Below, piece by piece: positions 1,524-62,327 of a stretch of 64,000 bases of DNA. The notes under the pieces are model-generated. The model was not told where the DNA came from. It searched no databases and saw only the letters and a program-made list of their open reading frames with translations. The stretch comes from Sipunculus nudus (lineage: Eukaryota > Annelida > Sipuncula > Golfingiida > Sipunculidae), in contig CM049307.1 in NCBI GenBank assembly GCA_026874595.1, forward strand, positions 1,325,579 to 1,389,578. Direction: 5' to 3'. Position numbers and translations under genes: made by a program. Each line of letters begins with the position of its first letter. The first letter of the stretch is position 1.

Positions 1524-3893
1524 AGCGAACCTGTGAGCTAATGCGATGGTGTGGAGGCGTCCGTCATCTGTACGTTAACCCATACTATTTCGAAAACGAC
1601 TGGACCTAGCATCATGAAATTTAATGCAAAAAATTAGCCATCTGAAAAACTCAGCATTTTCTTAGATTTTATTGAGGAAAAGCTAAATAACCTTTAAAAA
1701 TCTTCTCCGACGAAACGGTCTAGCCAAATTATTCAATATTTCACAGAAATAATCTTTTATACCATCCCTCTCAAGTTTGTTCGAATGGTTCAAGTTTGGT
1801 GAATTTTGGCCAAATTACAGGAAGTTGAACTTAGTCATCTGTCCAAAAAAGCATACTAAAATGACAAACTCCGAAAAGGCCAGAGCTATCATCACCAAAT
1901 TTTATGCCAGTGTTGGTCACATGAGTCATATATGAAATTCAGGTATTGGTGGTGCCACCAGCATTGACTTTTTTTGTACGGGGGTCATTGGTCATCTGTA
2001 CATTAACCCATAATTTCTCAGGAATAGCAGGAGCTACAATCCCCAGATTTTATGCAGTAATCTGTTACATATCAGATGTGAGATTCATCTTATTTTTTTG
2101 CTATCTGCATTTACTTAGATTTGGGAAAAAGGTGAATAACCTTTAAAAGTCTTCTTCTTGTAAAAGGTCCAGCCAGATCGTTCAATATTTTAAAGAAAAG
2201 ATCCCAGTGGCAAGCCCTCTCAAATTTGGTTGTTTAAATGGTTTGCATTTGATGAAACTAAGTGGAGTTTCAAGAATTTGAACAGTCATTTGGCAAAGTA
2301 ACCATACTGACATAGTAATCTCAGAAATGACAGAAGCTAGCACTACCTCGTATTGTGCAAATGTTGGTCACATGACTCATATTTGAAGTTGCAGATTTTG
2401 TGGTGCCACCTACATTGACCTGTTTTTTATGGGCAAAAACCTCATAATTTTAGCCTCTTTCAGCTTAAAATGTTCATTATAAAACTGTCAAGTTGAATTG
2501 TTCAATTTTTTAAAGAATTATCCAAGGACATGGTTCTTTCAATCATATCAGAAAAGCTTAAGTTGGTCTTATGGCCATTATCATGTCAAACTGAGGACTG
2601 CAAAACTGTTCTTCTACAAAATTATTGTTTCAATTATAACTTATTTAACATTGCACAAAAATTATTCTTAGGTGGCCTTTGTTCAAGTTTACTTGAATGA
2701 CTTTTGGCAGAATTATGGGACCTTTAATAATGAAAGAACTGCATCTTTTATTGTTCTAGATATTTTGATAAAAAGTTTATGAATATGTCAGCTTGAATAA
2801 AAGCATTTTAGCCAAAGTTTTTCAGTATGTGCCAACATATTAACCAACAGGCCAAGATTGTGTCTGTATCTTAAAATAAGTTGAGAAACTGCCAACTGTT
2901 TCAGATTTGGCAACAGATCAAGAGTTCATTCAGTGCAGCCAGATATAGGTCAAGAGTTCAATCAGTGCAGCCAAGCACAAGGCATGTGATCACCTCATGG
3001 GTGACGTGAACACCTCATGGGCACCATGTGATCACCTCATGGGTGTCATGCCCCTCAGGGCTGCATGTGGAGCCAGTCTGTGAGCTTATGCAATGGTTTG
3101 GCTACTATTTCAGATTTGGCAACAGGCCAAAGGTCAGTCTGGATATATTTATAGCTTTGGCAGACTGCAAACTGTATCTGATTTGGCAAAAGGTCAAGAG
3201 TTCACTCAGTGCAGCCAGGTATAGGTCAGGAGTTCACTCAGTCTAGCCAGGTGCAGGTCATGAGTTCACTCAGTGCAGTAGCCTGAGCCAGCAAATTTGT
3301 CTCAGTTCACTTGGGGCAACTGCCTGTCTCACCTAAGCTTGGTCAGCCACATGCATCAGACTCAAGGCAAGTTTGATGTACTGGCCTGATATTATGACCT
3401 GTCTATGTGTCTTTGATGGCTTTCTCGTTCACAAGACAGGTGTCGCCACCAACAATGACTTTTGCACAGTGTATGTGCCTGCTTATTTCTACAGATGAAT
3501 TTGATATATAAGCCTAAAATTGGGCTTATTTATACATATTGAATAGCTTTATCGTACACAAGACTGGTGGTGCCACCTACAATAATTTTTGCACAGTGGG
3601 TGTCCCTGCTTATTTCTTAGGAGGGGTTTGATATATCAGTCTGAAATTGGGCATATGTATATATATCTCTGATAGCTTCATTGTATACAAGACTAGTGGT
3701 GCAAGCTACAATCATTTTTGTGTTGTGTGCACCCATGCCAGAATTTCAGCAGGGATGTTTGTGTAATTGTTTCTTATTCAGAATGTTTAGTACCTGCATT
3801 GTTCATATACATGAGAAGTAATGGTCCAGCATTGAAGCATTATACCTGGTGTATTTCCCAATGCGCAAGTTTGCATTAGGCCTGTAGGCCTTG
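1524..3893 (+). mobile_element. Non-autonomous Helentron-like element, family 2, copy A
   Basis: The left end reads AGCGAACCTGTGAGC after a run of T. The right end carries a hairpin (AGGCCT-GT-AGGCCT) and finishes in CTTG followed by T. Just inside the hairpin, 'gcgcaagtttgcatt' is a degraded inverted match to the left end; the match is clearer in the copy ending at 61837 (CACAGGTTTGC versus GCGAACCTGTG). Short asymmetric inverted repeats plus a 3' hairpin and insertion between T residues are known features of Helentron/Helitron2-type elements; assigning this copy to them is inference. No transposase or Rep/helicase ORF is present, so it would be non-autonomous. A second full-length copy starts at 59120. 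Confidence 0.6.
2820..3300 (+). repeat. Internal module of family 2, inverted copy at 55860-56170
   Basis: Three to four short units of about 30 bp ('ggtcaagagttcactcagtgcagccag') plus upstream 'ggcaacaggccaa' are found in reverse orientation at 55860-56170. The paired weak ORFs across both places are repeat-derived and not genes. The module includes a small cluster built on 'caccTCATGGG' around 2989-3050. Confidence 0.65.
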
Positions 3894-3899
3894 TCCTAA

Positions 3900-4048: not shown

Positions 4049-6567
4049 AGCTCAGCTGACTATAAGTCATCGGTCCATTGTCTGTCATCCGTCCGTCTAT
4101 ATGTCCATCTGTAAGACTGGCACGTTTCGACACCATTGGACCTATGAATCTGAAATTCGGCATACAGTTAGATGCCCCAAAAATTTCCTACCATGCCGAA
4201 AATTGGGTCAATAGGACTTTGTTCCTTTGAGAAATTAAGGAAAAGCCTCAATTTATTAGAAATCTATTTTCACACTTCAGGACTGCCTAATATCAAAACC
4301 ACTCATCTGGTTTACTTCATATTTACCATACATATTCCTCTATATTTCCTATGTACATGCCAGAAATTAAGTCAGTATTATTTAATTTAAAAAAGTTATG
4401 GGCCCAAACATAATGGACTTTGTAAAAAAATCAGGAAAGATATTTGGTGACTTAAGACCAAAAGTGTTAAAGGAAGGGACTTTTTTCAGTAATACAACTT
4501 AAATTAATCAAAATTTTATTGTATACCAAAAATTAGATCAAAATCTGTTAAATTTTTTTAAATATTGGCAAAAATATAAAATTGGTACCTTAAATTTTGC
4601 CCAAGTTTGACCATGGCACGTTTTTTTCCTGTAATTGCTGTGGATTTAATTTTCAAAGCATGTTTTTTGTTAGCATTTCAACTGTTAACACCAAAAATTT
4701 GAATCCAGTTGATCAAAAACTGTAGATTTTATTCAAGTTTTCAAGCACCATGTCACATATATTTTACATCAAGCTAGTGTTATGCAGTTTGCTAGAGCTC
4801 AGCTCCCCAGCTTCAGCTCTAAGTTCCTTAAATTTGGCATACAGTTAGATGTCTCCAAAATCCCCAACCATGTCAAGAATTTGGTAACTAGGACTTAATT
4901 CCTTTGAGATATTAATGAAAAATTCCAATATTCCATTAAAACCCATTGTTACACTTTAAGACTGCCTAATATCAAAACCACTGATCTGACTTTGATCATA
5001 TATAATATACATATTTTTCTATACATTCGCTATGCACATGCCAGAAATTATGGTAGTATTGCGTAATTGTTTTAAGTTATGGGCCCAAACATAATGCACT
5101 TTTTAAAAATCAAGAAATATATTTTCCCCCTTAACAAGAGGATTGCTGAAGCTAGAGATTTTTTGTCAGGGATGTAACATTATTTATTCAAGATTCAATT
5201 GAATACCCAAAATTAGTTCTGAATTTTTCAAATTTTATAAGTTATTAGTATAAATATAAAATTAGTACCTTAACTTTTGCCCAACTTTGACCAAGGCACG
5301 TTTGTTTCCTGAGAGCACTGTTGATATAATTTTCATATCATGTTTACATAAGGATTTCATCTTTGTAGTTTAGAAAGCTGAAAGAAATTGGCCAAATATT
5401 GTGGCTTTTATTAATGTTTTTATGAGACCATGTCAGACCCAGGCTCTACTCAGCCCCTCTTCAGTCACCTGTATGTTGACCTTGTTGACCTTTCATCAGA
5501 TTATACACATAACAATAAACAATAAATCAATAAATTGTTATTGGTTTTTAATAACAAAGAAAAATAATAGAAAAGGAATTTGTTAGTTGATGAGTAACAG
5601 AAAATTAACTTGCAGTTACTGATGATGTAAGAATCTTGTATGGGGATGGATAGAATGTCAATGTCAATGTTATTCCAAATAACACCATGCAGTCACCTAT
5701 GGTATTTTTCAGTTCAATTTCAATGGTAAAAAAATAAATCATATTATTCATTACTATTCATTAAGGATCATATGAAGGAAATTAATGATAGACAAAGATG
5801 CAGTTGATAATATTAATCTAGATTCCTGCTGTGTCTAGTGTGTAGATTGATGTGAAAGTAGTCCAAAGTGAATATATTACATTTATTTTTTGTTTAATAT
5901 AAATAAAAGCCATAAAACCAGGTACTTATGATCATTATTTAAATTTGCGAATTTTGTATATTCTGGATTCTCAACATCATTGTTTGGCTAAAACTGAATA
6001 AATACTAGACATGGTGCGAATGCTTTGCAAATGTATTTGAATACGAATATGAATATGTACTGCATTAAAAAATGTTATTGCATAAGAATGGGAATTCAGG
6101 TAAAAATAAAAGTATTTGAATACATGTGCAGATACTTTCAAAATGTATTCATGAATGCTTTCATGAATATATTCTATAATATTATTTTAATAACCATTTC
6201 AGTTATTTTTTATTTTAAAAAATCATATGATTTTCTTATTATTTTTTAAAAATAAAATTATATTGGCACAATATTTGTTATTAAATTTTTATAAATAGTT
6301 AAACTGTTTCATTATATGCGCTGCTTATAAGTTATATGGCCAAGTCAAAATCTGTGTGACAATAGCACTCCAATTGTTAATAAAATAAATGAAATAAATC
6401 CTCTTCCCTGTCTCCAAAGATACTATCAAAATCATACATAAGCTAAACACCAACAACTCATAATAAAGCTTATATTTATTACCACATAAAACCAGCATGT
6501 GCCTCATTCCCAAATTATATTTTTTATCACATGTAACAGCTGAGCGCAGTGACCCATGGGTCCCTTG
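4049..6567 (+). mobile_element. Non-autonomous Helentron-like element, family 1, copy 1
   Basis: It begins AGCTCAGCTGAC after T residues and ends with CAGCTGAGC, a 12-bp perfect palindrome GACCCATGGGTC, then CCTTG followed by T. CAGCTGAGC is the inverse of the left end but lies inside the 3' hairpin, so the inverted repeats are asymmetric. The interior is AT-rich and non-coding; the small ORFs are not conserved as proteins. Its closest relative in the window is the copy at 44033-46638, alignable along nearly its full length. Other full-length copies are at 16012 and 29115. Helentron assignment is inference from end structure. Confidence 0.65.
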
Positions 6568-6659
6568 TTTCAATTTTTGATGCAATTTTTCTTTTATTTT
6601 GAGACTGCCAAATTATATTGATACTATCAGATTCACAACTGTGGTTTTGTGTGAGTCTT

Positions 6660-9600
6660 GGTTATAAGGCCCCGCTTGAATAAGTGGATGTCCTATTCTA
6701 ATCACCCTGTCCGTCTGTTTTTCTGTTCATCTTTCTGTATGTCTGTCATATTTGTTTCCTGATGATAACTTGTGTGGTTATAAGGCCCTGCTTGAATAAG
6801 TAGATGTCCTATTCTAATCACCCTGTCCGTCTGTTTTTCTGTTCATCTTTCTGTATGTCTGTCATATTTGTTTCCTGATGATAACTTGTGTGGTTATAAG
6901 GCCCCGCTTGAATAAGTGGATGTCCTATTCTAATCACCCTGTCCGTCTGTTTTTCTGTTCATCTTTCTGTATGTCTGTCATATTTGTTTCCTGATGATAA
7001 CTTGTGTGGTTATAAGGTCCCGCTTGAATAAGTAGATGTCCTATTCTAATCACCCTGTCCATCTGTTTTTCTGTTCATCTTTCTGTATGTCTGTCATATT
7101 TGTTTCCTGATGATAACTTGTGTGGTTATAAGGCCCCGCTTGAATAAGTGGATGTCCTATTCTAATCACCCTGTCCGTCTGTTTTTCTGTTCATCTTTCT
7201 GTATGTCTGTCATATTTGTTTCCTGATGATAACTTGTGTGGTTATAAGGTCCCGCTTGAATAAGTGGATGTCCTATTCTAATCACCCTGTCCGTCTGTTT
7301 TTCTGTTCATCTTTCTGTATGTCTGTCATATTTGTTTCCTGATGATAACTTGTGTGGTTATAAGATCCCGCTTGAATAAGTGGATGTCCTATTCTAATCA
7401 CCCTGTCCGTCTGTTTTTCTGTTCATCTTTCTGTATGTCTGTCATATTTGTTTCCTGATGATAACTTGTGTGGTTATAAGGTCCCGCTTGAATAAGTAGA
7501 TGTCCTATTCTAATCACCCTGTCCGTCTGTTTTTCTGTTCATCTTTCTGTATGTCTGTCATATTTGTTTCCTGATGATAACTTGTGTGGTTATAAGGTCC
7601 CGCTTGAATAAGTGGATGTCCTATTCTAATCACCCTGTCCGTCTGTTTTTCTGTTCATCTTTCTGTATGTCTGTCATATTTGTTTCCTGATGATAACTTG
7701 TGTGGTTATAAGGCCCTGCTTGAATAAGTGGATGTCCTATTCTAATCACCCTGTCCGTCTGTTTTTCTGTTCATCTTTCTGTATGTCTGTCATATTTGTT
7801 TCCTGATGATAACTTGTGTGGTTATAAGGCCCCGCTTGAATAAGTAGATGTCCTATTCTAATCACCCTGTCCGTCTGTTTTTCTGTTCATCTTTCTGTAT
7901 GTCTGTCATATTTGTTTCCTGATGATAACTTGTGTGGTTATAAGGTCCCGCTTGAATAAGTAGATGTCCTATTCTAATCACCCTGTCCGTCTGTTTTTCT
8001 GTTCATCTTTCTGTATGTCTGTCATATTTGTTTCCTGATGATAACTTGTGTGGTTATAAGGTCCTGCTTGAATAAGTGGATGTCCTATTCTAATCACCCT
8101 GTCCATCTGTTTTTCTGTTCATCTTTCTGTATGTCTGTCATATTTGTTTCCTGATGATAACTTGTGTGGTTATAAGGCCCTGCTTGAATAAGTGAATGTC
8201 CTATTCTAATCACCTTGTCCGTCTGTTTTTCTGTTCATCTTTCTGTATGTCTGTCATATTTGTTTCCTGATGATAACTTGTGTGGTTATAAGGTCCCGCT
8301 TGAATAAGTAGATGTCCTATTCTAATCACCCTGTCCATCTGTTTTTCTGTTCATCTTTCTGTATGTCTGTCATATTTGTTTCCTGATGATAACTTGTGTG
8401 GTTATAAGGCCCCGCTTGAATAAGTAGATGTCCTATTCTAATCACCCTGTCCGTCTGTTTTTCTGTTCATCTTTCTGTATGTCTGTCATATTTGTTTCCT
8501 GATGATAACTTGTGTGGTTATAAGGTCCCGCTTGAATAAGTAGATGTCCTATTCTAATCACCCTGTCCGTCTGTTTTTCTGTTCATCTTTCTGTATGTCT
8601 GTCATATTTGTTTCCTGATGATAACTTGTGTGGTTATAAGGTCCCGCTTGAATAAGTAGATGTCCTATTCTAATCACCTTGTCCGTCTGTTTTTCTGTTC
8701 ATCTTTCTGTATGTCTGTCATATTTGTTTCCTGATGATAACTTGTGTGGTTATAAGGTCCCGCTTGAATAAGTAGATGTCCTATTCTAATCACCCTGTCC
8801 GTCTGTTTTTCTGTTCATCTTTCTGTATGTCTGTCATATTTGTTTCCTGATGATAACTTGTGTGGTTATAAGGTCCCGCTTGAATAAGTAGATGTCCTAT
8901 TCTAATCACCATATCCGTCCATCTTTTCATCTGTTGGTCTTTCTGTATGTCTGTCATATTTGTTTCCTGATGATAACTTGTGTGGTTATAAGGTCCCGCT
9001 TGAATAAGTAGATGTCCTATTCTAATCACCCTGTCCGTCTGTTTTTCTGTTCATCTTTCTGTATGTCTGTCATATTTGTTTCCTGATGATAACTTGTGTG
9101 GTTATAAGGTCCCGCTTGAATAAGTAGATGTCCTATTCTAATCACCCTGTCCGTCTGTTTTTCTGTTCATCTTTCTGTATGTCTGTCATATTTGTTTCCT
9201 GATGATAACTTGTGTGGTTATAAGGTCCCGCTTGAATAAGTAGATGTCCTATTCTAATCACCCTGTCCGTCTGTTTTTCTGTTCATCTTTCTGTATGTCT
9301 GTCATATTTGTTTCCTGATGATAACTTGTGTGGTTATAAGGTCCCGCTTGAATAAGTAGATGTCCTATTCTAATCACCTTGTCCGTCTGTTTTTCTGTTC
9401 ATCTTTCTGTATGTCTGTCATATTTGTTTCCTGATGATAACTTGTGTGGTTATAAGGTCCCGCTTGAATAAGTAGATGTCCTATTCTAATCACCCTGTCC
9501 GTCTGTTTTTCTGTTCATCTTTCTGTATGTCTGTCATATTTGTTTCCTGATGATAACTTGTGTGGTTATAAGGTCCCGCTTGAATAAGTAGATGTCCTAT

Positions 9601-16011: not shown

Positions 16012-16320
16012 AGCTCAGCTGACTATAAGTCCTCTGGGCTATAGTCGTGGTCCTTTGTCTGTCGGCTGTCCGTCCGTCCGCCTGTCCGCCCATTAAACTG
16101 CCATGTTTCTTAACCGTTGGACCTACGAATCCAAAATTTGGCATAATGTTAGATGTCCCGAAGATTTCTTACCAAGCCGAAAACTGGGTCTTTGCGACTT
16201 CTTTCCTTTGAGTAAAATTAGGAAAATCCTAATTTTTTTATTAAAAACCTAATTTGACACATCCATACTGCCTAATATAAAAACCACTCATCTGACAGGT
16301 GTACATTTATTCTCATATCA

Positions 16321-16362
16321 CCACCCCCCCCCCCCCCTCCCCCCCCCCCCAACCCAACCCAC
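16321..16362. repeat. Poly-C tract with C-rich tail
   Basis: Two long C runs interrupted once by T, followed by 'aacccaacccaccg'. The opposite strand is G-rich with runs well above four, so G-quadruplex or i-motif folding is possible. Runs like this are also common sites of sequencing-length error. Confidence 0.9.
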
Positions 16363-16619
16363 CGAGTGTTATGCAGTAAATGTTATTGTTTTCACTGTAT
16401 CTCCTTAATTGTAATGCTGTTTCCACTCCAATATACAAAAACTTTCCTCGAAAAAGTAATTAAGGTGTAATCCAGAAGATGCCATGTTGTGTAAATGTAG
16501 CATTTTTAAAGAAATTAATTTTCTTTTAAATGATTTTAACAAATATAATTTAACCCATCAGTATGCTTAAATTTATAAAATACCTTGGTTGGCTTAATAT
16601 TTGTGGTGTTTTAAAATTC

Positions 16620-17640
16620 CCTATATTCGCGGTCGGGGCATTACTGTGAAATTAAAACCACGCAGATTTAAACCCTTGCTGTCATGGGAAAATAGTTTCT
16701 ATAGTCGTCACCAGATTGCGATCATTGGCATTAGTGGAAAATAAATATAATCCAAGGGACGATCTTGTTGATTGCAGCATGCGACATGTACACGTTCTAG
16801 CTTTAAATGAAATGTTTTATTTATTATTCATTATCATGCAACTAAAATGTATGGGACCATTTTTTTTGTATTGGTCATTGAAGCCATTTGTCTTGGTCCA
16901 GCTGCTTGTATTATCCCCGCTTGTAATGCTATGTCGGTTGTCAATCTGATCATTCGCCACTTTGAACAACTCTGCTCTTTCTTCATATTCACACTCGCTG
17001 GGATCAAGCAGACCTTCCGTGCGCGGCCACTTCAGGGATGGCCCCTTCCGAAACCAACTTGTAATACCCATGAAACCATGTTTCATTAACGTAATCCGAA
17101 CTTGATATGATCAAGATAATGTGTAGGGCCCTATTTATATTGATATGTAATGGCCAAGCTATGAAGTCAGTGCCCCTTTGAAGAGGCATCGCCAGGTCCA
17201 GGCAGTGACAGTCGTTGTAATTGGAGCAAAACATTAACATTAATTTGTACTCATTCCAAATAAAAATACCCTCAACATAGGGAGCTTGTTTAAACAAGAC
17301 GGGGCCAGTTTTCCTGTGATGACTAACACGGTTTCTTGACCAAAGCATTATCATTTATCACACCTGCACTGACAGGTGAACTGTGGGGAAGGCCTTCTGG
17401 TAATTAACTCTGACCCGAGCTGGGAAACCCCAGATAATTAGCTTTAATAAACAGTCATGGGCCGTGAGCATGGTTAATGAGGCGATAAGCAGATACTAAT
17501 AATTTTGTGTAATGAAGAATTGATAACTATCTCGTTGTTTATATCAAATTATTACTATATGCCCCATTGCGAAAATTTAACCCCGTGAAATTATGAAAAA
17601 TTGCCTGAGCGCGAAAATTGAGCCCCGAAAAATCAAAGCC
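16620..17640. other. Unclassified insert of distinct composition
   Basis: This segment is richer in GC than its surroundings and has no counterpart in the other three full-length family 1 copies. Its edges carry similar phrases: 'gaaattaaaaccacgcagatttaaacc' near 16650 and 'gcgaaaatttaaccccgtgaaatt' near 17570, suggesting the ends of an inserted element. The interior (17360-17480) has several homeodomain-type TAATTA/ATTA cores. Overlapping ORFs on both strands (up to 116 residues) match no family I know. Confidence 0.4.
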
Positions 17641-18417
17641 AACCACAGTTTGTAGCACATTATGGATAAATAAGGACACAATTTAAAATTTAAATCAAGT
17701 ATTATTTTTAGATATTTATTGTTTAGCAGATTTAAAAGATATATTTTTGTGGTAAAAAAAAAAAAAACATTTGTATGCCTGATGTGGTGTTTATCTGACA
17801 AGATTCCAGATTTATGATGATGCAATTGAGAATTATGAATCAACTTTTATATTCAGATATATATGTTATATTGAAAATGTATAGAAATATAAACTAATAA
17901 TAAAAAAAAATTGATGTGATAAAAAAATGAGGATCTAATACAAACATTTGTTCATTATTTTCCTTCAGCAGAATTGGAGATCAGGCTTTGTTTGCCCTGT
18001 ATGTATGTTGTTAATTAGTTGTATTTCAACTGTATACATTTCATCAAAAAAAAAATACATATATATTTAATAATATATATTATGCAAAAAAATAGATTCA
18101 ATTGAACAAATGTGTAAACTACTGAAATGTCAACAGTTAATCAAAAAGCCAACTAATGATCATGGTAATAGTACAGATCATTTGTTCACAAACTGTTCAC
18201 ATGCTTCAGTTTCAACATTAAGAAACACATGGTCAGGTCACAAAATATTATTTGCAACAATTTCTTGCTCATCAATACAAACCAATCATATAAACCAACC
18301 ATGGCCTATATTACCTCTTCCTCTTAAACTTTATCTTCATTTGATACTATTTTAGATTTTTACCTTCAAGGTCAACTTCAGCTGAGCACAGTGACCCATG
18401 GGTCCCTTGTCTGGGAA

Positions 18418-18484
18418 GCATTATACTAATGTATATCACTGATGTATATTCCTCTCACAGGTTTGATTATGCCTGTAGGCCTTC
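18418..18484 (+). mobile_element. Solo 3' end of family 2
   Basis: The sequence 'gaagcattata...cacaggtttgattatGCCTGTAGGCCTTC' matches the terminal 65 bp of family 2 (3830-3893 and 62265-62327), with the final CTTG mutated to CTTC. It directly follows the end of family 1 copy 2. Confidence 0.65.
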
Positions 18485-29114: not shown

Positions 29115-32100
29115 AGCTCAGCTGACTATAAGTCATCTGAGCTATAGTCATGGTCCATTGTCCGTCGTCCGTCCGTCTGTCGTGCCGTCTGTCTGTCCGT
29201 CTGGATGTCCGTCCGTAAGACTGGCACGTTTCGACACCGTTGCACCTACGAATCTGAATTTCGGCATACAGTTAGATGTCCCCATAATCTCCTACCATGC
29301 CAAAAATTGGGTCAATAGGACTTAGTTCCTTTGAGATATTAAGGAAAAACCTCAATTTTTTATTAGAAATCTATTTTCACACTTCAGGACTGCCTAATAT
29401 CAAAACCACTAATCTGGTTTTCTTCTTATTTACCATAAATATTCCTCTATATAGTTCCTATGTACATGCCAGATATTAAGTCAGTATTATATAATTTAAA
29501 AAGTTATGGGCCCAAACATAATGAACTTTATAAAAAAATCAGGAAGATATTTGGTCACTTAAGACCAAAAGTGTTAAAGGTAGGGACTTTTTTCCAGTAA
29601 TACAACTTTAATTAATCAAAATTTAATTGTATACCAAAAATTAGATCAAAATTTGTTAAATTTTTTTAAATATTGCCAAAAATATAAAATTGGTACCTTA
29701 AATTTTGCCCAACTTTGGCCATGGCACGTTTTTTTCCTGTAAGTACTGTGGATTTAATTTTCACACCATGTATACATAAGGATTTAATCTGTTAAAATCT
29801 GAAATTTGAAAATAAAAGCTGCAAATTTAGGCTAGTTATTGAATTTTTTTGGAGGCTCTTGTTGTTTTCCCTTACATTGTCAAGCAGTCCACTTTGATGA
29901 CTGTAGGTCATTCAGTGCACATCTCTATGCTCCCCAGGCTGTTGACATATTTTTAGTATCCCAAAAATCTCCTACCATACCAAAAATTGGGTCATTAGGA
30001 ATTTGTTCCTTCAAGATATTATGAAAAAACAACCTCTGTTTTCCATAAAAAAAGCCATTGTTACACTTCAAGGCTGCCTAATATCAAAACCACTGATCTG
30101 TTTTTGATCATATTTAGTATTCACATTCTTTCATACATTTTCTATGAATATACCAAAAATTAGGTCAGTATTGGGTATTATTTTGAAGTTATGGGCCAAA
30201 ACAGAATGCATTTTTTTTTTAAATCAGGAAATATATTTAATCACCTAACATGAGAATTGCTGAACCTAGAGACTTTTTTTCAGGAATATAACTTTATTTA
30301 ATCAAGATTCAATTGTTTACCCAAAATTAGATCTGAATTTTGCAAATTTTTCAAGTTATTAGCATAAATAAAAAATCAATACCTTAAATTTTGTCCAACT
30401 TTGGCACTGTTGATTTAATTTTCCCAGCATGTATGCATAAGGATTTAATCTTTTAAAATCTGAACTTTCAAAAGAAATTGATTGGAATGAATAGCTTTTA
30501 TTCATGTTTTCATACACCATGTACAGCCTTCACTTGCATTATGTAACCCACCCCAGGCAGCTTACCTTGGCCCAGCTTGGCCACTACTAGCAGGCTTCCC
30601 CTCTGCCATGCACTCATCCCCCCCCCCCCAGCTGGTGAATAAGCTAGATGAATGTTATAATTTTTCTGTATTTTATTTTATTCTTGGACATGCTACATTT
30701 TAGAGTTTGTATTGAACCACCAGGGTTACAATGATTAAAGTGTACATTTAATTGTGTCCACAAAGTGGTGTATTGCTGTGAAAGTGTGGATGTTCATCAG
30801 ATAAGTAATTCCTTACTTCAGAAGAGTAAAAACTTCACCAGGTGTGAAATTGACTATTAATTCCAGTAATTAATTAAAACTGGGATAGTAATTAGCACAA
30901 TGAGATTGTTTGTCCCTCATTCAACCAACAGTGTGTATACTTTATTTGAAAAGATGTTTTATTTTATCAAATTTACTTTTATTTTATTTTGGTGAATAAA
31001 ATTAAGCATGTCCTGAAAACTCCAATGTGCAAAACTTTTAAATAGTGATTCAAGTAATATTCTTGTAGATGCCATGTTGTGGCATTATTTTCTTTTAAAA
31101 TCAGTGTAAACATTTATGATTTAAAAATAATAAAATATATGTGTATGCATAATATGACCCAATGTTTTTTACTCTGTATATATAATGATTGCAACTTTTG
31201 CAACAATTCTAATATTTTAACTTATATTTTCAGGTTTTTTAATTAAAAATTTATAAACCTGTAAATAAAAAAATGATTCAGATAAAAACTTCTTAATGGA
31301 AAAAGTGGATCTGCTTAAAAAAATAGGATTATATATAAACTTAAATGCATTATTCTCTTGAAAGTGAAATAAAGGTATTAGTCCATTCTGTCCACTTGCC
31401 TGTCCATCTGTAAATTTTCGTATGCAACACAGTATCTCAAAACTTTTACTGTTTTTCTTCATGACAGTCTTGTCAAAGTATTAGTTTGCAATCATATATT
31501 TAGAACTTTACTATAACCAAGTAGGAGGGCCCCTTTCCTCTTAGCTTTTCATATTCTTATATAAATGAAAAACATTGCAATAGAATATTTCTACATCCAC
31601 CTTTGTGCTGCCCTCACTTTTCCCTTCTCCGAACCTCATCCCAAAGTCAGTCTCAGTAAGCAAGAACAAGATGAATCAGATATATTCATACTTTAATATT
31701 TTGTATAACTAATTGTCTAAGGTACCTATGTACATGCCAGAAATTATGTCAATATTGTGTAATATGTAGACATAGTGGGCATCACAATAATGTACCTTGT
31801 CAAGACTAAAGAGATATTGTGTCATACAGTCACTTATTCATAAATCACTTCATCAGCATAGTTAATCATAACATCATATCTGTCAAATTGAACACTTGCA
31901 GACTACCATACACTTTAGATCCTTCAACAAATAGCCTTATCATCATTCTACTACTGCTTATAACTGCTGTCATTGCATTCATATTTGCTCAAATATATCA
32001 CAATTTTCAACCCCTCCTAAATTAATTTAAAAAATGAACCACTTTATTTGACTCTATTAATCCATCAGTCAGGTAATTTCATTTATCATTTACTCACATA

Positions 32101-32237
32101 TTACATTACATTCCTTTATAATAGCCCAACATGTACATGATATTCATAAGCTTTATCGACTCGATATAGTATCACAGTGGAGAAACATTCATAGTCCAAT
32201 CACGATCAGCTGAGCGCCGTGACCCATGGGTCCCTTG
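29115..32237 (+). mobile_element. Non-autonomous Helentron-like element, family 1, copy 3
   Basis: The left end AGCTCAGCTGAC lies between T residues and is followed by a 'gtccgtcgtccgtccgtctg' pyrimidine-rich stretch. The right end TCAGCTGAGC, palindrome GACCCATGGGTC, CCTTG then TTT is the cleanest of the set (10/10 match of the inverted repeat). At 3.1 kb it is the longest copy, apparently with extra internal sequence at 30540-31700. It ends 466 bp before exon 3. Confidence 0.65.
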
Positions 32238-36215: not shown

Positions 36216-36222
36216 ATACCTG

Positions 36223-36745: not shown

Positions 36746-36749
36746 TTAA

Positions 36750-44032: not shown

Positions 44033-46638
44033 AGCTCAGCTGACTATAAGTCATCTGAGCTATAGTTGTGGTCCATTGTCCGTCGTCCGTCCGTCTGTCG
44101 TGCCGTCCATCCGTCCGTAGATGTGGCACGTTTTGAAACCGTAAGACCTAGGAATCCAAAATTCAGCATAATGATAGATGTGCCCAAGATCTCCTACCAA
44201 GCCGAAAACTGGGTCTTTCCGACTTCGTTCCTTTTAGAAATTAAGGAAAAACCTCAATTTTTTATTAAAAACCTATTTTTACACTTCACGACTGCCTAAT
44301 ATCAAAACCACTCATCTGTTTTTCCTCATATTTACCATAATTATTCCTCTATATAGTTCCTATGTACATGCCAGAAATTATGTCTGTATTATGTAAATTT
44401 AAAAAGTTATGGGCCCAAACATAATGCATTGTGTAAAAAATCAGGAAAGATATTTGATCACTTTACACAAAATATGTTAAAGCTATAAACTTTTTTTTCC
44501 AGTAATATAACTTTAATTAATCAAAATTAAATTGTATACCCAAAATTAGATCAAAATCTTTTAAATTTTTTAAAATATTAACAAAAATAAAAAATTGGTA
44601 CCTTAAATTTTGACCATGGCACATTTTTTTCTTGTAAGTACTGTGGATTTAATTTTCACAGCATGTTTTTTTTTTAGCATTTTGTCTGTAAACACCAAAA
44701 ATTTGAAACCAGTTGATCAAAAACTGTAGATTTAATTCAAGTTTTCAAGCACCATGTAACATATTGTTTACATCAAGCTAGTGTCATGCAGTTTGCAAGT
44801 GCTCAGCTCCCCAGCTTCAGCTCTCAGTTCCTAAAATTTGGCATGCAATTAGATGTCTCAAAAATCCCCTACCATGCCAAGAATTTGGTCACTAGGACTT
44901 AATACCTTCGAGATATTAATGAAAAACTTCATTTTTCCATTAAAAACCCATTGTTACACTTCAAGACTGTCTAATATCAAAACCACTGATCTGACTTTAA
45001 TCATATATTATATACATATTTTTCTATACATTCTCCATGCACATGCCAGAAATGATGTCAGTATTGCGTAATTGTTTTAAGTTATGGGCCCAAACATAAT
45101 GCACTTTGTAAAAAATCAAGAAATATATTTACTCCCTTAACAAGAGGATTGCTGAAGCTAGAGATTTTTTGTCAGGGATGTAACATTATTTAATTAAGAT
45201 TCAATTGAATACCCAAAATTAGTTCTGAATTTTTCAAATTTTATAAGTTTTTAGTATAAATATAAAATAAGTACCTTAAATCTTGCCCAACTTTGACCAT
45301 GGCATGTTTGTTTCCTGTGAGCACTGTTGATATTATTTTCATATTATGCACACAAAGATTTCAGCTTTTTAGTTTAAAAAGCTGAAAGAAAATTGGCCAA
45401 AAATTGTAGCTTTTATTAATGTTTTTATGAGACCATGTCAGACCTTGGCTCTCTGTAGCACCTCTTGAGTCACCTGTATGTTGACCTTGTTGAACTTTCA
45501 GCAAATTATGCATGCTTGAGGCAAGGCATAAACTGGGGCTCCAGGCAGCTTATTATATAATGGCCAGCCACAGTTGATCCAGGTGTCCAACCCAACTCAT
45601 CTAGTAGTTTTAACCAACAACATAACAATAAACAATAAATTAATAAATTTTTATTGGTTTTTAATAACAAATTAAAGAAAAATAGAAAAGGAATTTGTTA
45701 GTTGATAATAACAGGAAATTAACTTGCAGTTACTGATGATATAAGAATCTTGTATCGTTGGATAGAATGTCACGTATTCCAAATAACACCATGCAGTCAC
45801 CTATGGTATTTTTCAGTTCAATTTTAATGATAAAAAAGTAAATCATATTATTCATTACTAATCATTAGGGATCATATGAAGGAAATTAATGATAGACAAA
45901 GATGCAGTTGATAATATTATTATCTATATTCCTACTGTGTCTATAGTTAGTACATTGATGTGAAATTAGTCCAAAATGAATATATTACATTTTTTTTTAA
46001 TATAAATAAAAGCCATAAAACCAGGTACTTATGATCATTATTTAAATGTGTGAATTTTGTATATTCTGGATTCTCAACATCATTGTTTGGTGAAAACTGA
46101 ATAAATACCAGACATGGTGCGAATACTTTGCAATTGTATTTAAACACGAATGTGAATATGTACTCCATTATAAAATTTCTTTCATAAGAATGGGAATTCA
46201 GGTAAAAATGAAAGTATATGAATACCAGTGCAAATACTTTCAAAATGTATTAATGAATGCATTCATGAATATATTCTTTAATATTATTTCAGTTGTATTT
46301 TATTTGAAAAAATCATACTATTCTCTAATTATTTTTAATAAAAATTATATTTGGGACAATATTTGTAATTTTTTTAATAAATTGTTAAACTCTTATATTA
46401 TATGTTCTGCTTATAAGTTATCTGTGTGACAATCGCACTCCATTAGTTAATAAAATAAATGAAATTAATCCTCTTTCCTGTCTCCAAAGGTACTATCAAA
46501 AACATACATAAGCTAAACAACAACAACTCATAATACAGCTTATTTTTATTACCACATAAAACCAGCATGTGCCTCATTTCTAAATCATATTTTTTTATCA
46601 TATATAACAGCTGAGCGCCGTGACCCATAGGTCCCTTG
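44033..46638 (+). mobile_element. Non-autonomous Helentron-like element, family 1, copy 4
   Basis: Left end AGCTCAGCTGAC after T residues; right end AACAGCTGAGC, GACCCATAGGTC (palindrome broken by one G-to-A change) and CCTTG then TTT. Alignable nearly end to end with copy 1 (4049-6567), including 'atgtcagaccttggctct' and 'gatagaatgtca' landmarks, with 5-10% differences by eye. No protein-coding potential. Confidence 0.65.
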
Positions 46639-48723: not shown

Positions 48724-50500
48724 AGCTCAGATGACTTTCAGTTATGCTGAGCCATAGCATCAACCTTTTATCTGCTGTCCTTCCATCTGGCTGTCTGGCC
48801 ACAGTGAAATTGTAACCACTGGACTTAGAAACTTCTTACTGAAAAACCAAAGAGATCTTTAAAAAATCTTTTTGGAAATTTGAAATTAGGTTATTCTGTG
48901 AACTATATGTTCTGAGCTATGGGGCTTTTTTGTGCACCCCAGAATTAATAGAAATTTGATACAAAGCCTCCAGCATCTCAATAATAAATTTTTAAAATAG
49001 CATAATTTATGCTAAGTTTTAATTGATCATGAAGAGTTTCATCAGCTGCTTAAGACCTGTAGTTTTAGTTCACTTTGTGAACTTAGGCCATGACTCATCC
49101 ATCATCAACAGTCAACCATCACACATTTGTCATGACTTATTGATCATTTGATGAATATGGAATAATTACCTTTTGGTGGTGCCACCTATGTTGACCTACC
49201 TTAATTCTGCAGCTGAAATGTTCTTTCCTGCTTTTTTAAGATAAGTCATTTAAAGACTTAATATTTTGGCTTTCATATCATATTCAGCAATTAAATAGAG
49301 GCAGAGAAAAAGAAGGAAAATGAATTAATTCTTATTACTTTCAAAATAGCAACCTTACCGAACTTTTGAACAAATTTTGTCAGTTGCATATTCATTCAAT
49401 TTCATGCATTTGCATTCATTATTGTAATGACTATTACCAAATATCTCAAGAACAGCTGCAGCCTTCAGCACCAAATTTCACAGAACATTTGGTCCTGTGA
49501 CTGCTACATGATTTTGAGCTACAGGTGGCACCACCTGACTTCTATGGGCTAAAATTTCCTACTTTTTCCAAAATAGCTTTCATATCATAGTCAATGTTTC
49601 TTAAGAGAAAGGGGAATAGAATGAGTATGAATTCAGTAAAATCATTTTCAAGATGGCATCTTTATGGAAATTCAAATTCTGTGTATCACAATATTTGACC
49701 ATGTGATGATATGATGGTAATTTCTCAGGACCAGCTGCAGCTGTCAGCACTAATTTCACAAAAATATTGATCATGTGATATTTAGCTGCAGAAGTATTGA
49801 AGATTTCTTCCTTAAATAGGCATACAAGATGATTCCATAATATTCTATTGTCCGTCCCACTACCCGTGTCTGCCTGTTCTTCCGGGATAATTTTTCATAC
49901 AAGTGAAGCAGTGTACACCTTTCTGGTCCAAAGGTTGCAGGAGCTATTCCCCCAATGCCTGCATAAAAAATAACGCCTTACCTTGCTCTGATTTTGTATG
50001 TATGAGACAAATAATCCAAAACATGACTAAACAAGTTTCACCGTTTATGACTTTTACATCACCATTGACTGATAATAAACAAGCCAGGCAAACTGATGAT
50101 GTCAGTCAATTCAAAGTGATGAGTGACCAATCATTGTGACGTCTTTGTGATGTCACTGTTGTCTAACAAACACAAAACCAAGCCATAGACATGGAAAGTG
50201 TAACATGGAGGAATGTACTGTCCAGCAGTGCCGGGAAGATGCCATCCACGGTATTTCAGCATAAAGAACGCAAAAGACTCACAAAGTAAATACGTATTTC
50301 GTGATATAAAACTACTTTACACAAAATTGGCAGAATATGTCTTTATCTACAGACCAAAGGGTTTTTTTAAAGAATATTCTTAAATTAATTATCCCGAAAA
50401 ACATGCGGACAAGGGTTTTGGGAAGGAATATATGAAAAAATCAAAACTAGTGGCTTGACTGTGATCATAAGGGACAGTTAAGCCAAATTACAATTCATTA
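48724..50500 (+). mobile_element. Partial element beginning with a family 1-like left end
   Basis: At 48724 AGCTCAGATGACTTTCAG follows a T run, resembling the variant left end at 63317 (AGCTCAGCTGACTTTCAG). Modules with 'ggtggtgccacctatgttgacc' follow (49170, 49520). No 3' hairpin/CTTG end was found before exon 4, so the copy is decayed or truncated. The far limit is arbitrary. Confidence 0.4.
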
Positions 50501-53198: not shown

Positions 53199-53640
53199 AG
53201 CTCAGCTGATTCTAAGTCATCTGAGACACAGTGATTGATAGTCATCTGGCTGGCTATTAACAGGGCTTGTTTTGAAACCACCAAATCCAAAATTCCGTAT
53301 ACTGGTAGATGTTCTTATGTTCTCCTAACCAACCCAAAACTGGGTCACTCCAACTTTATTCCTTTGAGGAAATAAGGAACAATTTTACCATTAAAAAATA
53401 TTGTTACACTTCAAGACTGCTAAATATTGAAATGGCTGTTATTGTTTGATTAATATGTGGCATTAGTGTTCCTCTGTATATTTCCTGTGTACAGGTACAT
53501 GGCAGAAATTAGGTCAATATTGTGTAATTTTAGAATTTACGGACCAGGACATAATATACCTCGTCTGAACATCAGGAAAGATATTTACCCACTACACATG
53601 GTAACTTTTGAAAAATGCCTAGGTATTATCAACTGACACC
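53199..53640 (+). mobile_element. 5' fragment of a family 1 element
   Basis: Begins AGCTCAGCTGATTCTAAGTC after a T run and keeps landmarks such as 'acttcaagactgc', 'aatattgtgtaattt' and 'catcaggaaagatattt'. Homology fades by about 53640 with no 3' terminus, so it is truncated. Confidence 0.6.
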
Positions 53641-55299: not shown

Positions 55300-56170
55300 C
55301 AAGGCCCACAGGCCAATGGAATCTGTGCAATGGGATATACACAAGGTATAATGCTTCAGTGCTGGACCATTACTTTTCAAGTACATTTAAAACATGTATA
55401 TGTACTAAACAGTTTTAAACAAGAAACAGTTACACAAGCATCACTGCTGAAATTCTGGCATGGGTGCACACGACACAAAAATGATTGCAGCTGGCACCAC
55501 CTGTCTTGTATACAACGAAGCAATCAGAGGTATATGCATATGCCCAATTTCGGATTGATATGTCAAACCCCTCTTGCAAAATAAGCAGGGACATACACAG
55601 TGCAAAAATTATTGTAGGTGGCACCACCAGTCTTGTACACAATAAAGTTATCTGTTATGTATATATATGCATGATTTCAGGCTGATGTATCAAATTCCTC
55701 CATACACTGTGCAAAATTCATTGTAGGTGGCAACACCAGTCTTGTGAACAAGAAAGCCATCAAAGATGCATAGACAGGTCAAAATATCAGGCCAGTACAT
55801 CAAACTTCCCTTGAGTTTGATGCACTGGGCTGACCAGGCTTAGGTGAGAAAGGCAGGTGCCCAGAGTGAACTGTGACAAATTGCTGGCTCAAGCTACTGC
55901 ACTGAGTGAACTCTTGACCTGCACCTGGCTAGACTGAGTGAACTTTTGACCTGTACCCAGCTGCAATGAGTGAATACTTGACCTGTTGCATAATCTGACA
56001 CAGTTGGCAGTCTGCCAAAGCTATAAAGAGATCCAGGCTGACCTTTTGCCTGATGCCAAATCCGAAATAGTCTGCCAAGCTGTTTATAGATACAGACACA
56101 ATCTTGGCCTGTTGATAAATCTGTTTATACATACTGAAAGACTTTGGCTAAAATGCTTTTTTTTTAAGCT
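55300..56170 (-). mobile_element. Inverted 3' portion of a family 2 element
   Basis: Reading on the minus strand, the element ends at 55300 with CAGATTCCATTGGCCTGTGGGCCTTG, a version of the family 2 hairpin and CTTG end, preceded by 'gaagcattatacc'. Its body matches 2820-3890 in reverse, including the 'caaaggtcagcctggat' region (about 56030). The 5' part is missing beyond about 56170. Confidence 0.65.
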
Positions 56171-58289: not shown

Positions 58290-59100
58290 TAATGCCCTTT
58301 TCTCATGAGTGATTTGCAGTATTGGCCTGAAATTGTGCATACCCATAGATCTTGGACTTCTCCATCTTGTACTCAAGACTGGTGGCACCATCTGCAATCG
58401 TTTTCCCATGGCGTTCATCCGTACATGTGCTTTGGGTGAAAATTGCTTATATCTCAGGAATGGTTCAAGGTATTTTCTGAATTTGGCATGTTCATCCATC
58501 TTGGAAAGTTTTCCCATAAACTAGATAGGTGGTGCCACTCACCTGTGCATTTTTGTAGAATAAATTAATGCCCTTTTCTCAGGAGTGATTCGCAGTATTG
58601 GCCTGGAATTGTGCAAATAAATAAATCTTGGACTCTTCTCTCTTGCATTCAAGTCTGGGGGTGCCATCTGCAATTGTTTTTCCATGGTGTCCATCCATAT
58701 ATGTGTTTTTGTTGAAAATTGTGCATATCGTAGGAGTGGGTCAAGGTATTGTTCTAAAATTTGGCATGTTCATCCATCTTTGAAAGGTTTCTCATAAACC
58801 TTGCGTAACCTGAGGTAGCACCTCTCATCTTTCCATTTTTGTAGAAGACATTAATGCCCTTTTCTCAGGAGTGACTTTCAGTATTGGCCTGAAATTGTGC
58901 ATGTCCATGATCTTGGACTCCTTCATCTTATACTTGAGACAGGTGGTGTCATCTAAAATCAATTTCCTGTGGCGTCTATTTGTACATGTACTTTGCATGA
59001 AAATTGCTTATTATCTCAGGAGTGGGTCAAGGTATTTGTCTGAAATTTGGCATGTTCATCCATCTTGGAAAGTTTCCTTGTAAATCAGACAGGTGGTGCC
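58290..59100 (+). repeat. ~280-bp tandem module, three copies
   Basis: 'gcccttttctcaggagtgat' marks units at 58293, 58571 and 58857. Each includes 'ttggcctgaaattgtgc', 'catcttgtattcaagactgg', a GGTGGC(G/A)CCA palindrome and 'tttggcatgttcatccatct'. Single copies lie at 28690-29000 and 32240-32420. Confidence 0.85.
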
Positions 59101-59119
59101 ACTTAACTTTATGTTTTTT

Positions 59120-61837
59120 AGCGAACCTGTGAGCTTATGCGATGGTGCAGCGTCGTCTGTCCATAGTCAGCCGTCCGCCGCCAGCTGTCCGCCGTCCAGG
59201 GCTGGCTTTCCACCGTCCATGGCTGTAAGTCAGAAACCGTCGGAGCTAGCAGCTCCAAATTACATGTAAGAATTAGTCACATGTGAAACTTGGTGCCTTG
59301 GAGCTTATTATTGGGTATCTGCATTAATTGAGATTTTATAGAGAAAAAACTTAAAAACTTTTAAAAATCTTCTTCTCTGAAACTGTCCAGCCAAATTGTC
59401 CAATATTTTACAGAAATGATCCCTGGAACAATCTCTCTCAAGTTTGTTCGAATGGTTCCAGTTTGGAGATTTTTGGCGGAGTTACAGGAGGTTGAACATA
59501 GTCATCTGTCCAAAATAGCACACTAAAATAAAAATCTCAGAAACAGCCAGAGCTATAATCACCAAATTTTATACCAATGTTTGTCACATATGTCATATCT
59601 GATTTTGAGGTATTGGTGGCGCCACCTACATTGATGTGTTTTTTACAAGCGAAAATGTAATGTTAAACTCTACAAGCTGATACACTGATTTATGATGAAA
59701 CTGTTAAGCTGATTGGTTTAAACTTTACAAGAAGTATTCTATGTTAGGGTTCTGCCAGTTTTATAAGAATAGATTGGGTAAATACAGTTTTAAAAAAAAC
59801 ATTGTAGCCAATTGAAAAAGGCTTTCTGTATTGAAAACAGATTTGACAACTTGCTGAGTTTCAGCAACCAAGTCAAGAGGTCAGTACAAACAGGTGGGGT
59901 CCAGACATCACCATGGCAACTGACCTGGCTCAGGGGGAGACATAGCGTCTGGACGTCTAGACACAATGTTTAGATGCAGAATTCCCAGATTATTGGAACT
60001 ATATCTTTCAACTGTTTGGAAAAACTTGGTTTGCTTTTTAAGCGAATTGGGTATATCATCAAGTCACATGTGAACTGCTGCACCCTCATTTTTGGTTGAC
60101 CTGTGACCTCTCCTCGCAGCCCAGCGTCTGTTTGTGCATCTGTTTCCACACATTAACCAGCATATCTCGGGAACTGTTTGACCAATCAGGCTAAAAATTT
60201 TGCACAAATGTAGCCCTGTGATAGCTTTATAACATACACTAAAAATGGTGGCGCCACCTGCAACCATTTTTGCACAGCATCCATCTGTTCATCTGCCTTG
60301 GGACAATATCACTCATATCTCAGCAGTGGTTTGACTTATCCACCTGAAATTTTGCAGGTTTTTACATCCTGGACAACTTTCTCGATTTTATGACAGGTGG
60401 CGCCACCTACATTCACTATAACTCTGCAGACATCCAATCTCATATCTCGGGAATTGTTTGACCGATTGGGCCAAAATTTTGCATGTGTATAGATCTCACA
60501 TACCTCTTCATCATAGGCAAAACTGGTGGTTCCACCTGCAACCATAAATGCACAGCACCCATCTGTTCATCTGCCTTGGGATAAAATCACTCATATCTCA
60601 GCAGTGGTTTGACTTATCTACATGAAATTTTGCAGGTTTATACATCCTGGACAGGTTTCTCAATTTTATGACAGGTGGCACCACCTACATTCATGTTTAC
60701 TCTGCAGACATCCAAGCTCATATCTCAGGAACTGTTTGACCAATTGGGCCAAAATTTTGCATGTGTATAGATCTCACATAGCCCTACATCATAGGCAAAA
60801 CTGGTTGCACCACGTGCAACCATTTATGCACAGCATCCATCAATTCATCTGCCTTGGGATAATATCACTCATATTTCAGCAGTGGTTTGACTTATCCACC
60901 TAAAATTTTGCAAGTTTATACATCCTGGACAGCTTTCTCGATTTATGACAGGTGGCGCCACCTCCATTCACATTTACTCTACAGACATTCAAGCTCATAT
61001 CTCGGAAACCTTTTGACTGATTGGGCCAAAATTTTGCATGTGTATAGATTTCACATAGCTCTTCATCATAGGCAAAACTGGTGGCACCACCTGCAACCAC
61101 TTATGCACAACATCCATCTGTTCATCTGCCTTGGGATAATGTCACTCATATCTCAGCAGTAGTTTTACTTATCCACCTGAAATTTTACAGGTTTATACAT
61201 CATGGACAGCTTTCTTGGTTTATGACAGGTGGCACCACCTACATTCACGTTTACTCTGCAGACATCCAAGCTCATATCTCCGGAACCGTTTGATTGATTT
61301 GGCCAAAATTTTGCTTGTGTATAGATCTCACATAGCTCTTCATCATAAGGAAAACTGGTGGCACCACCTGCGCACCACTTATGCACAGCGTCCATCTGTT
61401 CATCTGCCATGGGATAAAATTACTCATATCTCAGCAGTGGTTTGACTTATCCACCTGAAATTTTGCAGGTTTATACATCCTGGACAATTTTCTCGATTTT
61501 ATGACAGGTGGCACCACCTACATTCACATTTACACTGCAGACATCCATGCTAATATACAACACACCTCACTGTATTCCCCTTGCCACTTAATTCATGCCT
61601 CACTTCACCCGTCCCACTCTGATTTCTGCGGATACACAGTCGCTTGTTGACTACCCATATTCTAGTTTTAAAACGTCCTAGTCTGAAACTTGCAGGTCCG
61701 AAATGTCCCTTTTGCTTAAATCATAATGACTAAGGTAGATATGCAGGACTTAAAAGGATCAATATTAAATTTAAAAAATAAACCTCCATTCATACTCCCA
61801 AACTTTGCACAGGTTTGCATTATGCCTGTAGGCCTTG
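59120..61837 (+). mobile_element. Non-autonomous Helentron-like element, family 2, copy B
   Basis: The left end AGCGAACCTGTGAGC follows a T run and matches the left end at 1524. The right end has CACAGGTTTGC (inverse of GCGAACCTGTG at 10 of 11 positions), hairpin GCCTGTAGGC, CTTG then TTT. The middle (60170-61560) is a ~279-bp tandem repeat. Central tandem repeats flanked by subterminal inverted repeats and a 3' hairpin are described for Helentron-associated interspersed elements; the assignment remains inference. Confidence 0.62.
60170..61560 (+). repeat. ~279-bp tandem core of family 2 copy B, about five units
   Basis: 'tctcagcagtggtttgactt' recurs at about 60317, 60597, 60875, 61155 and 61430. 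Each unit carries two near-perfect GGTGGCGCCACC-type palindromes. Small ORFs on both strands (66-93 residues) repeat with the unit and are not genes. Confidence 0.88.
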
Positions 61838-62327
61838 TTTATTTGTTAAAATAACTTTATGCCCTTTTTGGTGCAGTATTGGCCTCAGGTTGTGCAACCT
61901 ACAATCATGTTTATGTAGCAGACATCCATCTCACTCTATTTCCCGTTATCACTGAATCCATGCCTCACTTCACCTGTACCACTCTGATTTCGCTGGATAC
62001 ATGTAGACGCTTTTGACTACCTGTATCTAGTTGTTTCATGCATCTGTGCACATGGCCGAAGAGTGGTTTGAAGTATCTGCCTGAAATTGTTCATGTACAT
62101 AAATTTTAAATGAATTTCTCACACACAAGATTGGTGGTGCCACTTACATTTATTTTTGTGTTGTGTGCACCCATGCCAGTATTTCATCAGTGATGTTTGT
62201 GTAATTGGTGCATGCACTCGAGTTTAAAATGTTCAGTGCTTGCATTGTAAAGTAACGGTCCACCATGGAAGCATTATACCTGGTGTATATCCCATTGCAC
62301 AGGTTTCCATTAGGCCTGTAGGCCTTG
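61838..62327 (+). mobile_element. Second family 2 3' end, tail duplication
   Basis: Landmarks 'cagacatccat', 'catgcctcacttcacc' and 'ccactctgatttc' of 61540-61660 recur at 61920-62000, and a second hairpin/CTTG terminus lies at 62300-62327. Two 3' ends in series behind one 5' end suggest a duplicated tail or an adjacent truncated copy. Confidence 0.6.

Follow-up and report, generated by a model that had tools for sequence, protein, structure and literature searches.

In the genome of Sipunculus nudus, two unrelated families of non-autonomous Helentrons (HINEs), family 1 (F1) and family 2 (F2), share orientation domains: along contig C1, we show that copies of both families tend to point the same way within domains of ~0.2-1 Mb, which alternate along the contig with, for example, a minus-to-plus switch between 1.15 and 1.23 Mb. 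Both families occur in the window, by which we mean the whole 64,000-nucleotide stretch analysed here (C2:1325579-1389578), in a genome of 1.4265 Gb in 153 contigs, 17 of which measure 61-111 Mb. The shared domains, absent from the first-pass annotation of this DNA, look to be what is new, and they look undescribed: no report of such domains was found among the papers listed in the literature searches, which covered open-licence papers only and are not proof of absence. Our best explanation, to which we give a probability of about 0.6, is that the HINEs were mobilised in trans and that the strand of insertion was set by replication forks, most likely as the lagging-strand template. For the general proposition that rolling-circle transposons choose the lagging-strand template at forks, and that Helentron relics record fork direction, origins and termination zones, we see slightly better than even odds.

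Genome counts of element ends were judged against the same patterns read backwards, as a chance control. The 11-base F1 start was counted 48,125 times (97 for the backwards pattern), the 44-base F1 start 9,577 times (0), the 18-base F2 start 5,775 times (0), the F2 3' end 994 times (0), and a 23-base version of the start of F1b, a subfamily of F1, 3,616 times exactly (0). These counts are far beyond chance, and the genome-wide search that the first-pass annotation had proposed for both pairs of ends yielded thousands of exact copies of F1 and F2 ends, with next to none in the backwards control. Each pattern is balanced between the strands genome-wide (4781/4796 for F1, 2950/2825 for F2), so any strand bias is local and not a global preference. 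Such a bias is plain on C1 between 96 and 843 kb, where 68 of 71 F1 5' ends are minus. The matches listed for the 11-base start comprised 32 on the plus strand to 2.84 Mb and 68 on the minus strand to 0.843 Mb; only the 96-843 kb interval was used, both strands being taken as complete there, as judged from where the listed matches stop. Neighbours in the F1 list were alike in 72/99 cases (71/98 with 99 of the 100 labels), against a shuffle mean of 53.5, and that agreement was reached in 2 of 100,000 shuffles. At two mismatches the F1 5' pattern also matches F1's own 5' palindrome on the opposite strand, and such matches were excluded from the counts.

The two families also agree with each other. 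Orientation in this comparison was read from 5' ends alone, using, among the matches listed, 99 F1 places (one above 8.716 Mb dropped) and 94 F2 places (six above 15 Mb dropped), with the dropped places retained in self-pairs and votes; the dense map that results covers C1 0-15 Mb. Pairs of one F1 and one F2 element were alike in 42/47 cases at less than 20 kb, 114/144 at 20-100 kb, 129/156 at 100-200 kb, 219/309 at 200-500 kb, 364/506 at 0.5-1 Mb, 390/724 at 1-2 Mb and 1218/2172 at 2-5 Mb. Within 200 kb, 285/345 pairs were alike, which none of 48 rotations of the F2 labels along C1 reached, rotation along a contig being a procedure that preserves runs.

Segmental or tandem duplication, or local hopping, could leave local copies in the orientation of their neighbour. 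Some 5' ends do lie within a few hundred bases of one another (e.g., C1 190959 and 191191), and tandem Helitron arrays are described for bat and silkworm in the passages cited (PMC4067079). The agreement between F1 and F2, however, spans hundreds of kb and joins families that the first-pass annotation rightly held to be unrelated: their window copies gave no mutual alignment at E <= 0.001, whereas copies within one family do align. The 300-bp upstream flanks of the nine window 5' ends are also mostly unrelated (2 of the 36 pairs align, with three alignments in all, and one of these pairs owes its match to a common tandem repeat), and for four of the six complete window insertions there are element-free relatives of the site itself. 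On balance, we think it improbable that duplication or hopping made the domains.

A further possibility is that these are ordinary HINE families and nothing more, the domains being a quirk of the beginning of C1. The dense map does come from C1 0-15 Mb, and F1b follows it weakly, but three sets of data lie beyond it. F2 3' ends compared with F1 and F1b ends, a sparser set that extends to 68 Mb on C1, were alike in 28 of 34 nearest comparisons within 100 kb (0/99 rotations). In the window, on C2, all nine 5' ends are plus, as are two of the three F2 ends known as 3' palindromes only, the third being minus. The third set comes from contig ends. Forks must run outward at chromosome ends; therefore, minus elements are predicted at left ends and plus elements at right ends. 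This prediction was set down before the pieces were fetched, with the direction on C1 known beforehand. We compared 102 pieces from 34 contig ends (34 pieces 1 kb long, taken at 200 kb, and 68 pieces 500 bases long, taken at 120 or 320 kb; 3/102 were mostly N) with an oriented element library; 18 matched and 84 had no match. Left ends gave nine minus and two plus pieces, right ends six plus and one minus (Fisher p = 0.013; without C1, p = 0.041), and on eight contigs other than C1, 13 of 16 matching end pieces were in the predicted direction. By end, the left ends of C1, C3, C7 and C10 were minus, that of C2 plus and that of C14 split; the right ends of C3, C4 and C13 were plus and that of C5 minus. 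Elements near contig ends thus tend, weakly, to point outward, and we consider a mere quirk of C1 quite unlikely.

Transcription, or selection after insertion, might also align neighbours if copies in one orientation persist more readily within introns or within one-strand clusters of PIWI-interacting RNAs (piRNAs). Unistrand piRNA clusters are known in Drosophila (PMC10643416). The domains, however, reach ~1 Mb and alternate along C1. Runs of co-directed genes are usually shorter than ~1 Mb domains. Retroelements offered a control: long interspersed nuclear elements (LINEs) were sampled by a PQGS motif (998 places against 4 by chance; 61 listed on C1) and long terminal repeat (LTR) elements by a gypsy-type YLDD motif (403 places against 63 by chance; 32 listed on C1). 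Among the matches listed, LINEs were oriented like the nearest Helentron end in 11/20 cases at up to 100 kb and 15/29 at up to 200 kb, LTR elements in 4/9 and 7/15, and self-pairs closer than 200 kb were alike in 4/9 cases for LINEs and 11/25 for LTR elements. The LINE self-pairs leave out 20 tandem copies at C2 24.97-25.04 Mb; the LTR self-pairs leave out one minus place, C3 53657833, which lies 20 bases from a plus one and whose inclusion would give 11/26. These small samples show no clear agreement or clustering, and an origin of the domains in transcription or selection is unlikely.

Other candidate controls were set aside. An L1-like 3' end gave 13 places only, against 9 by chance, and DDE_3 gave 22 matches only, six of them on small contigs. 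In the control searches, tolerating one mismatch gave the same 100 places among the matches listed. C107, C110, C117, C120, C124 and C131 carry one DDE_3 match each, of identical score and far above any chromosomal match; these are possibly foreign or extrachromosomal sequence. No neutral repeat common to at least four loci emerged from a first all-against-all comparison of loci, and a second returned mostly Helentron pieces and their tandem repeats. An Rfam search at E <= 1 that covered the window plus eight loci returned five matches, all weak, and no tRNA-like head of a short interspersed nuclear element, and a repeat search of the whole window was dominated by a 116-bp satellite. The LINE motif itself marks at least 20 identical matches at C2:24965579-25042695, mostly ~3.9 kb apart and on the minus strand throughout, which look like a reverse-transcriptase gene or LINE repeated in tandem. 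At C3:12.97-13.27 Mb lies a dense reverse-transcriptase cluster with near-equal scores, all minus among the matches listed.

If T tracts are needed for insertion and one strand is locally T-rich, target composition could impose a direction, and all nine window 5' ends do follow TT. Counts of TTTT and AAAA on the plus strand are nearly equal, however: 458/457 in masked plus domains of C1, 100/105 in minus domains and 352/332 in the window. AT skew is about -0.02 in plus and minus C1 domains alike, far too small for biases of 80-96%. Because T and A tracts are nearly equal in the sampled domains, we rate target composition as highly improbable as the main cause. Base skew was also of no use as separate evidence of fork direction, its values being inconsistent: GC skew was +0.027 in plus and -0.070 in minus domains of C1, -0.041 in the plus window, -0.021 in right-end pieces and +0.023 in left-end pieces.

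Several observations weigh against replication forks as the source of the domains. We infer the link to forks, and the background base skew does not track the domains consistently. The dense map is limited to C1 0-15 Mb and the control samples are small; F1 and F2 are still alike in 1218/2172 pairs at 2-5 Mb. F1b agrees more weakly, with 15/20 nearest F2 ends at up to 50 kb but 22/36 at up to 100 kb (p = 0.24). The window itself includes a minus F2-type end, and in L007 a minus F1 element lies inside a plus domain. LINE-Helentron pairs at 20-500 kb are slightly in excess (168/273, the pairs not being independent), so there may be a weak orientation effect for LINEs. Counted by end, 7/9 decided contig ends are as predicted, which is not significant alone, and pieces from the same end are not independent. 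A telomere array was not seen in the first 150 bases of 17 contigs (two were N there), and some contig ends are therefore perhaps not chromosome ends.

Under the mechanism we favour, Helentron Rep/PIF1-helicase proteins would mobilise F1 and F2 in trans (of the two families, F1 alone has a partner found here), and the Rep nuclease, judged from the family at large, would cut one strand and join it into a T tract, leaving no target duplication. New copies would preferentially be joined to the strand that is single-stranded at host forks, most likely the lagging-strand template, and the 5'-to-3' direction of an element would then be a record of the usual germ-line fork direction at that place. 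Unrelated families would hence come to lie in common orientation domains of ~0.2-1 Mb, and elements near chromosome ends would tend to point telomere-ward. Initiation zones would appear as minus-to-plus switches, with which the alternation of domains along C1 fits. We infer both that the domains are fork-direction domains and which strand is used. Of the two parental strands, the one whose 5'-to-3' direction matches that of the moving fork serves as the lagging-strand template, and the sense strand is the one thought to be transferred by rolling-circle elements. The contig-end data fit the lagging-strand template because a minus element at a left end, where forks move left, has its sense strand there. 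These data do not distinguish that template from the nascent leading strand, whose polarity is the same. In the passages cited, IS608 and ISDra2 insert into the lagging-strand template, with an orientation that follows replication (PMC5371812), and the Helraiser authors name lagging-strand single-stranded DNA as one possibility (PMC4778049). If this mechanism is true, the source of single-stranded DNA for Helitrons and Helentrons becomes testable from assemblies alone. Helentron-rich genomes would carry a long-term map of germ-line replication direction, even without replication experiments, and tens of thousands of Helentron relics would form a readable record of fork direction in an animal-sized genome.

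A partner able to move such elements was sought among Helitron_like_N (PF14214) matches, of which the genome has at least 143, 150 of 195 candidates having been scored. We read four loci of 15-16 kb, containing elements A, B (on C17), C and D (on C7). In element D the F1 3' end (GACCCATGGGTCCCTTGT) is present without mismatch, downstream of the Rep/helicase frame and on that frame's strand; D also has 178 bp in common, at 78%, with the window copy at 16012, and its 5' end was not located. Element B carries the F1 3' end with one mismatch, downstream of a long open reading frame (ORF) and on the same strand. Pfam searches of three ORFs (A, C and D) found DUF6570, Helitron_like_N and PIF1 in every one, with OTU and Exo_endo_phos in addition in A, and Exo_endo_phos_2 and a Herpes_teg_N match in C. 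The endonuclease matches in A and C are above the cut-off; D's frame, which ends at 1658 aa, has no match to an endonuclease domain. Element C is ~93% identical to B over 6 kb, and of these two it is C whose domains were scanned. An HUH-motif pattern matches B, C and D, not A, and A has neither F1 nor F2 ends. Judged from its sequence, F1 has a Rep/PIF1-helicase partner with the same 3' end. The first-pass annotation had proposed a search for an autonomous partner with the same ends; one was found for F1, by the 3' ends of D and B, while no F2 end was found in the four loci, which, out of at least 143 Rep matches, are too few to show absence.

All six elements that the first-pass annotation placed in the window, four of F1 and two of F2, are present with the ends it gave them, and six further ends were added to its list: three F1-type 5' ends (48724, 53199 and 63317) and three F2-type 3' ends (18469, 55302 and 62312). 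The features, in window coordinates, are as follows.

1524..3893, plus: complete F2 element (HINE), with AGCGAACCTGTG start, AGGCCTGTAGGCCTTG end and flanking T
4049..6567, plus: complete F1 element (HINE), with exact ends and element-free relatives
16012..18409, plus: complete F1 element (HINE); 18113-18289 has 78% identity to autonomous element D
18469..18482, plus: F2-type 3' palindrome with 1 mismatch, probable F2 relic, just downstream of the 16012 copy
29115..32237, plus: complete F1 element (HINE), with element-free relatives
44033..46638, plus: complete F1 element (HINE), palindrome with one mismatch, with element-free relatives
48724..48734, plus: F1-type 5' end with 1 mismatch
53199..53209, plus: F1-type 5' end, exact
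55302..55315, minus: F2-type 3' palindrome with 2 mismatches, the sole opposite-strand F1 or F2 end found in the window
59120..61837, plus: complete F2 element (HINE), with both ends, a 278-bp tandem repeat x4.7 at 60241-61556 and an element-free relative
62312..62325, plus: F2-type 3' palindrome of a further copy, exact, then TG and T, at the end of the range covered by the first-pass annotation
63317..63327, plus: 5' end of F1b (AGCTCAGCTGACTTTCAGTCA), exact

F1 elements begin with AGCTCAGCTGA and carry, at the 3' side, CAGCTGAGC, then the palindrome GACCCATGGGTC, then CCTTG; in the 44033 copy the palindrome has its one mismatch at 46622. F2 elements begin with AGCGAACCTGTG and carry, at the 3' side, a CAGGTTTGC-type repeat, then AGGCCTGTAGGCCT, then TG, the repeat being diverged in the 1524 copy and the palindrome being ATGCCTGTAGGCCT in the 59120 copy. 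Asymmetric subterminal inverted repeats (CAGCTGAGC in F1, CAGGTTTGC-type in F2) are present at both ends, the 5' copy at nucleotide 2 and the 3' copy ~19-31 nt in from the 3' end. These repeats and the 3' palindrome confirm ends of the Helentron/Helitron2 type; the right inverted repeat, however, had been placed inside the hairpin, and in both families it lies on the interior side of the palindrome. From the palindrome to the 3' end there are 5 nt in F1 and 2 nt in F2. The 5' end of F1 is itself palindromic in copies such as 29115 (AGCTCAGcTGACTataAGTCAtCTGAGCT, as read). By folding energy the F1 hairpin does not stand out (z = 0.35), and the value for F2 is modest (z = -1.95). Internal tandem repeats include the 278-bp unit of the 59120 copy and GTCC-type microsatellites close to three F1 starts, and an F1-type locus elsewhere (L012) has a tandem repeat in common with the 59120 F2 copy.

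The insertion sites are T tracts. TT stands ahead of 9/9 window 5' ends, and T follows 6/6 complete 3' ends (TT in 4/6), so that the T expected on each side was there. When the 100-base flanks were joined, element-free relatives aligned across the junction for 4/6 elements. For the 4049 site these lie at window 34180-34344, where a gap of 10 bases falls close to the junction, and in L001, where there is none; for the 29115 site in a 276-bp repeat at 58303-59030 and elsewhere; for the 44033 site in L105, L129, L078, L020 and L042; and for the 59120 site at 58458-58616, where the junction has a gap of 9 bases. The alignments are 66-78% identical and some are gapped at the junction. A search for empty sites with TT at the insertion point had been proposed; insertion into T tracts is borne out, and the exact number of Ts is uncertain at this identity and with these gaps. 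No longer target duplication is visible in the element-free alignments of the 4/6 elements. The elements thus insert into T tracts without target duplication, and F1 and F2 have neither the target duplication nor the symmetric terminal repeats of DDE transposons.

The window holds other features as well. Near the minus F2-type palindrome, at 55302-55986 on the minus strand, lies an apparent reverse complement of the 32-bp repeat of the 1524 F2 copy; this segment is probably an F2 relic against the local orientation. F1b, whose 5' end lies at 63317, is less faithful to the shared domains on C1 than F1 and F2, and it may be older, from a time of other fork directions. The 116-bp satellite (6659-15128, 73 copies, 98% alike) begins ~90 bp past the 3' end of the 4049 F1 copy, and its plus strand is markedly rich in T (AT skew about -0.41). 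A 39-bp tandem array (21975-27670, 147 copies) has ACT-rich units and a GC skew of about -0.7, one strand being G-poor. On the minus strand at 35229-38603, several open frames resemble, by eye, a tyrosine-recombinase retroelement.

Among known systems, the IS200/IS605 elements (IS608 and ISDra2) transpose as single strands in an orientation that records replication direction, in the passages cited (PMC5371812), and the domains here look like such a record. They differ in being a bacterial insertion-sequence family; the likeness is one of behaviour, and the fork link here is a proposed one. Human LINE-1, with its leading-strand preference, is a eukaryotic element with an orientation preference relative to replication; it differs in being a retrotransposon with an overall preference, and orientation domains are not described in the cited passages (PMC10030826). 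Canonical Helitrons (Helitron1, Helraiser) share a Rep/Hel protein, a 3' hairpin and the absence of target duplication, but their 5' TC and 3' CTRR termini and insertion between A and T are lacking here, where we find AGC...CTTG and insertion between T and T instead. Helitron2, including the fungal FoHeli, has asymmetric terminal inverted repeats, hairpins and insertion beside T runs in the passages cited (PMC5148889); the candidate partner proteins of this genome differ in that two (A and C) have a C-terminal endonuclease-type domain, a Helentron trait. With respect to HINEs and Helentrons (DINE-1-like), the palindrome lies 2-5 nt from the 3' end here compared with 8-35 nt in mite HINEs, whose 3' repeat is 38-60 nt in; the AGC...CTTG termini and the shared orientation domains also set our elements apart, the cited passages making no mention of such domains. 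What they have in common, as described in those passages (PMC4067079, PMC7492417), is a pair of subterminal inverted repeats, one close to the 5' end and the other ~19-31 nt in from the 3' end, together with a 3' palindrome, a T-tract target without duplication, microsatellite or tandem-repeat cores, and a Rep/helicase partner, to which the passages add an endonuclease that may be matched here by the domains in A and C. Unrelated HINE families with one end design have already been described in oyster (PMC7492417, in the passages cited), so the pair of families that the first-pass annotation thought might be the main undescribed system does not count as one. The elements appear to be new families within a known kind: F1 is a HINE family with a Helentron partner, and F2 is a HINE family by anatomy only.

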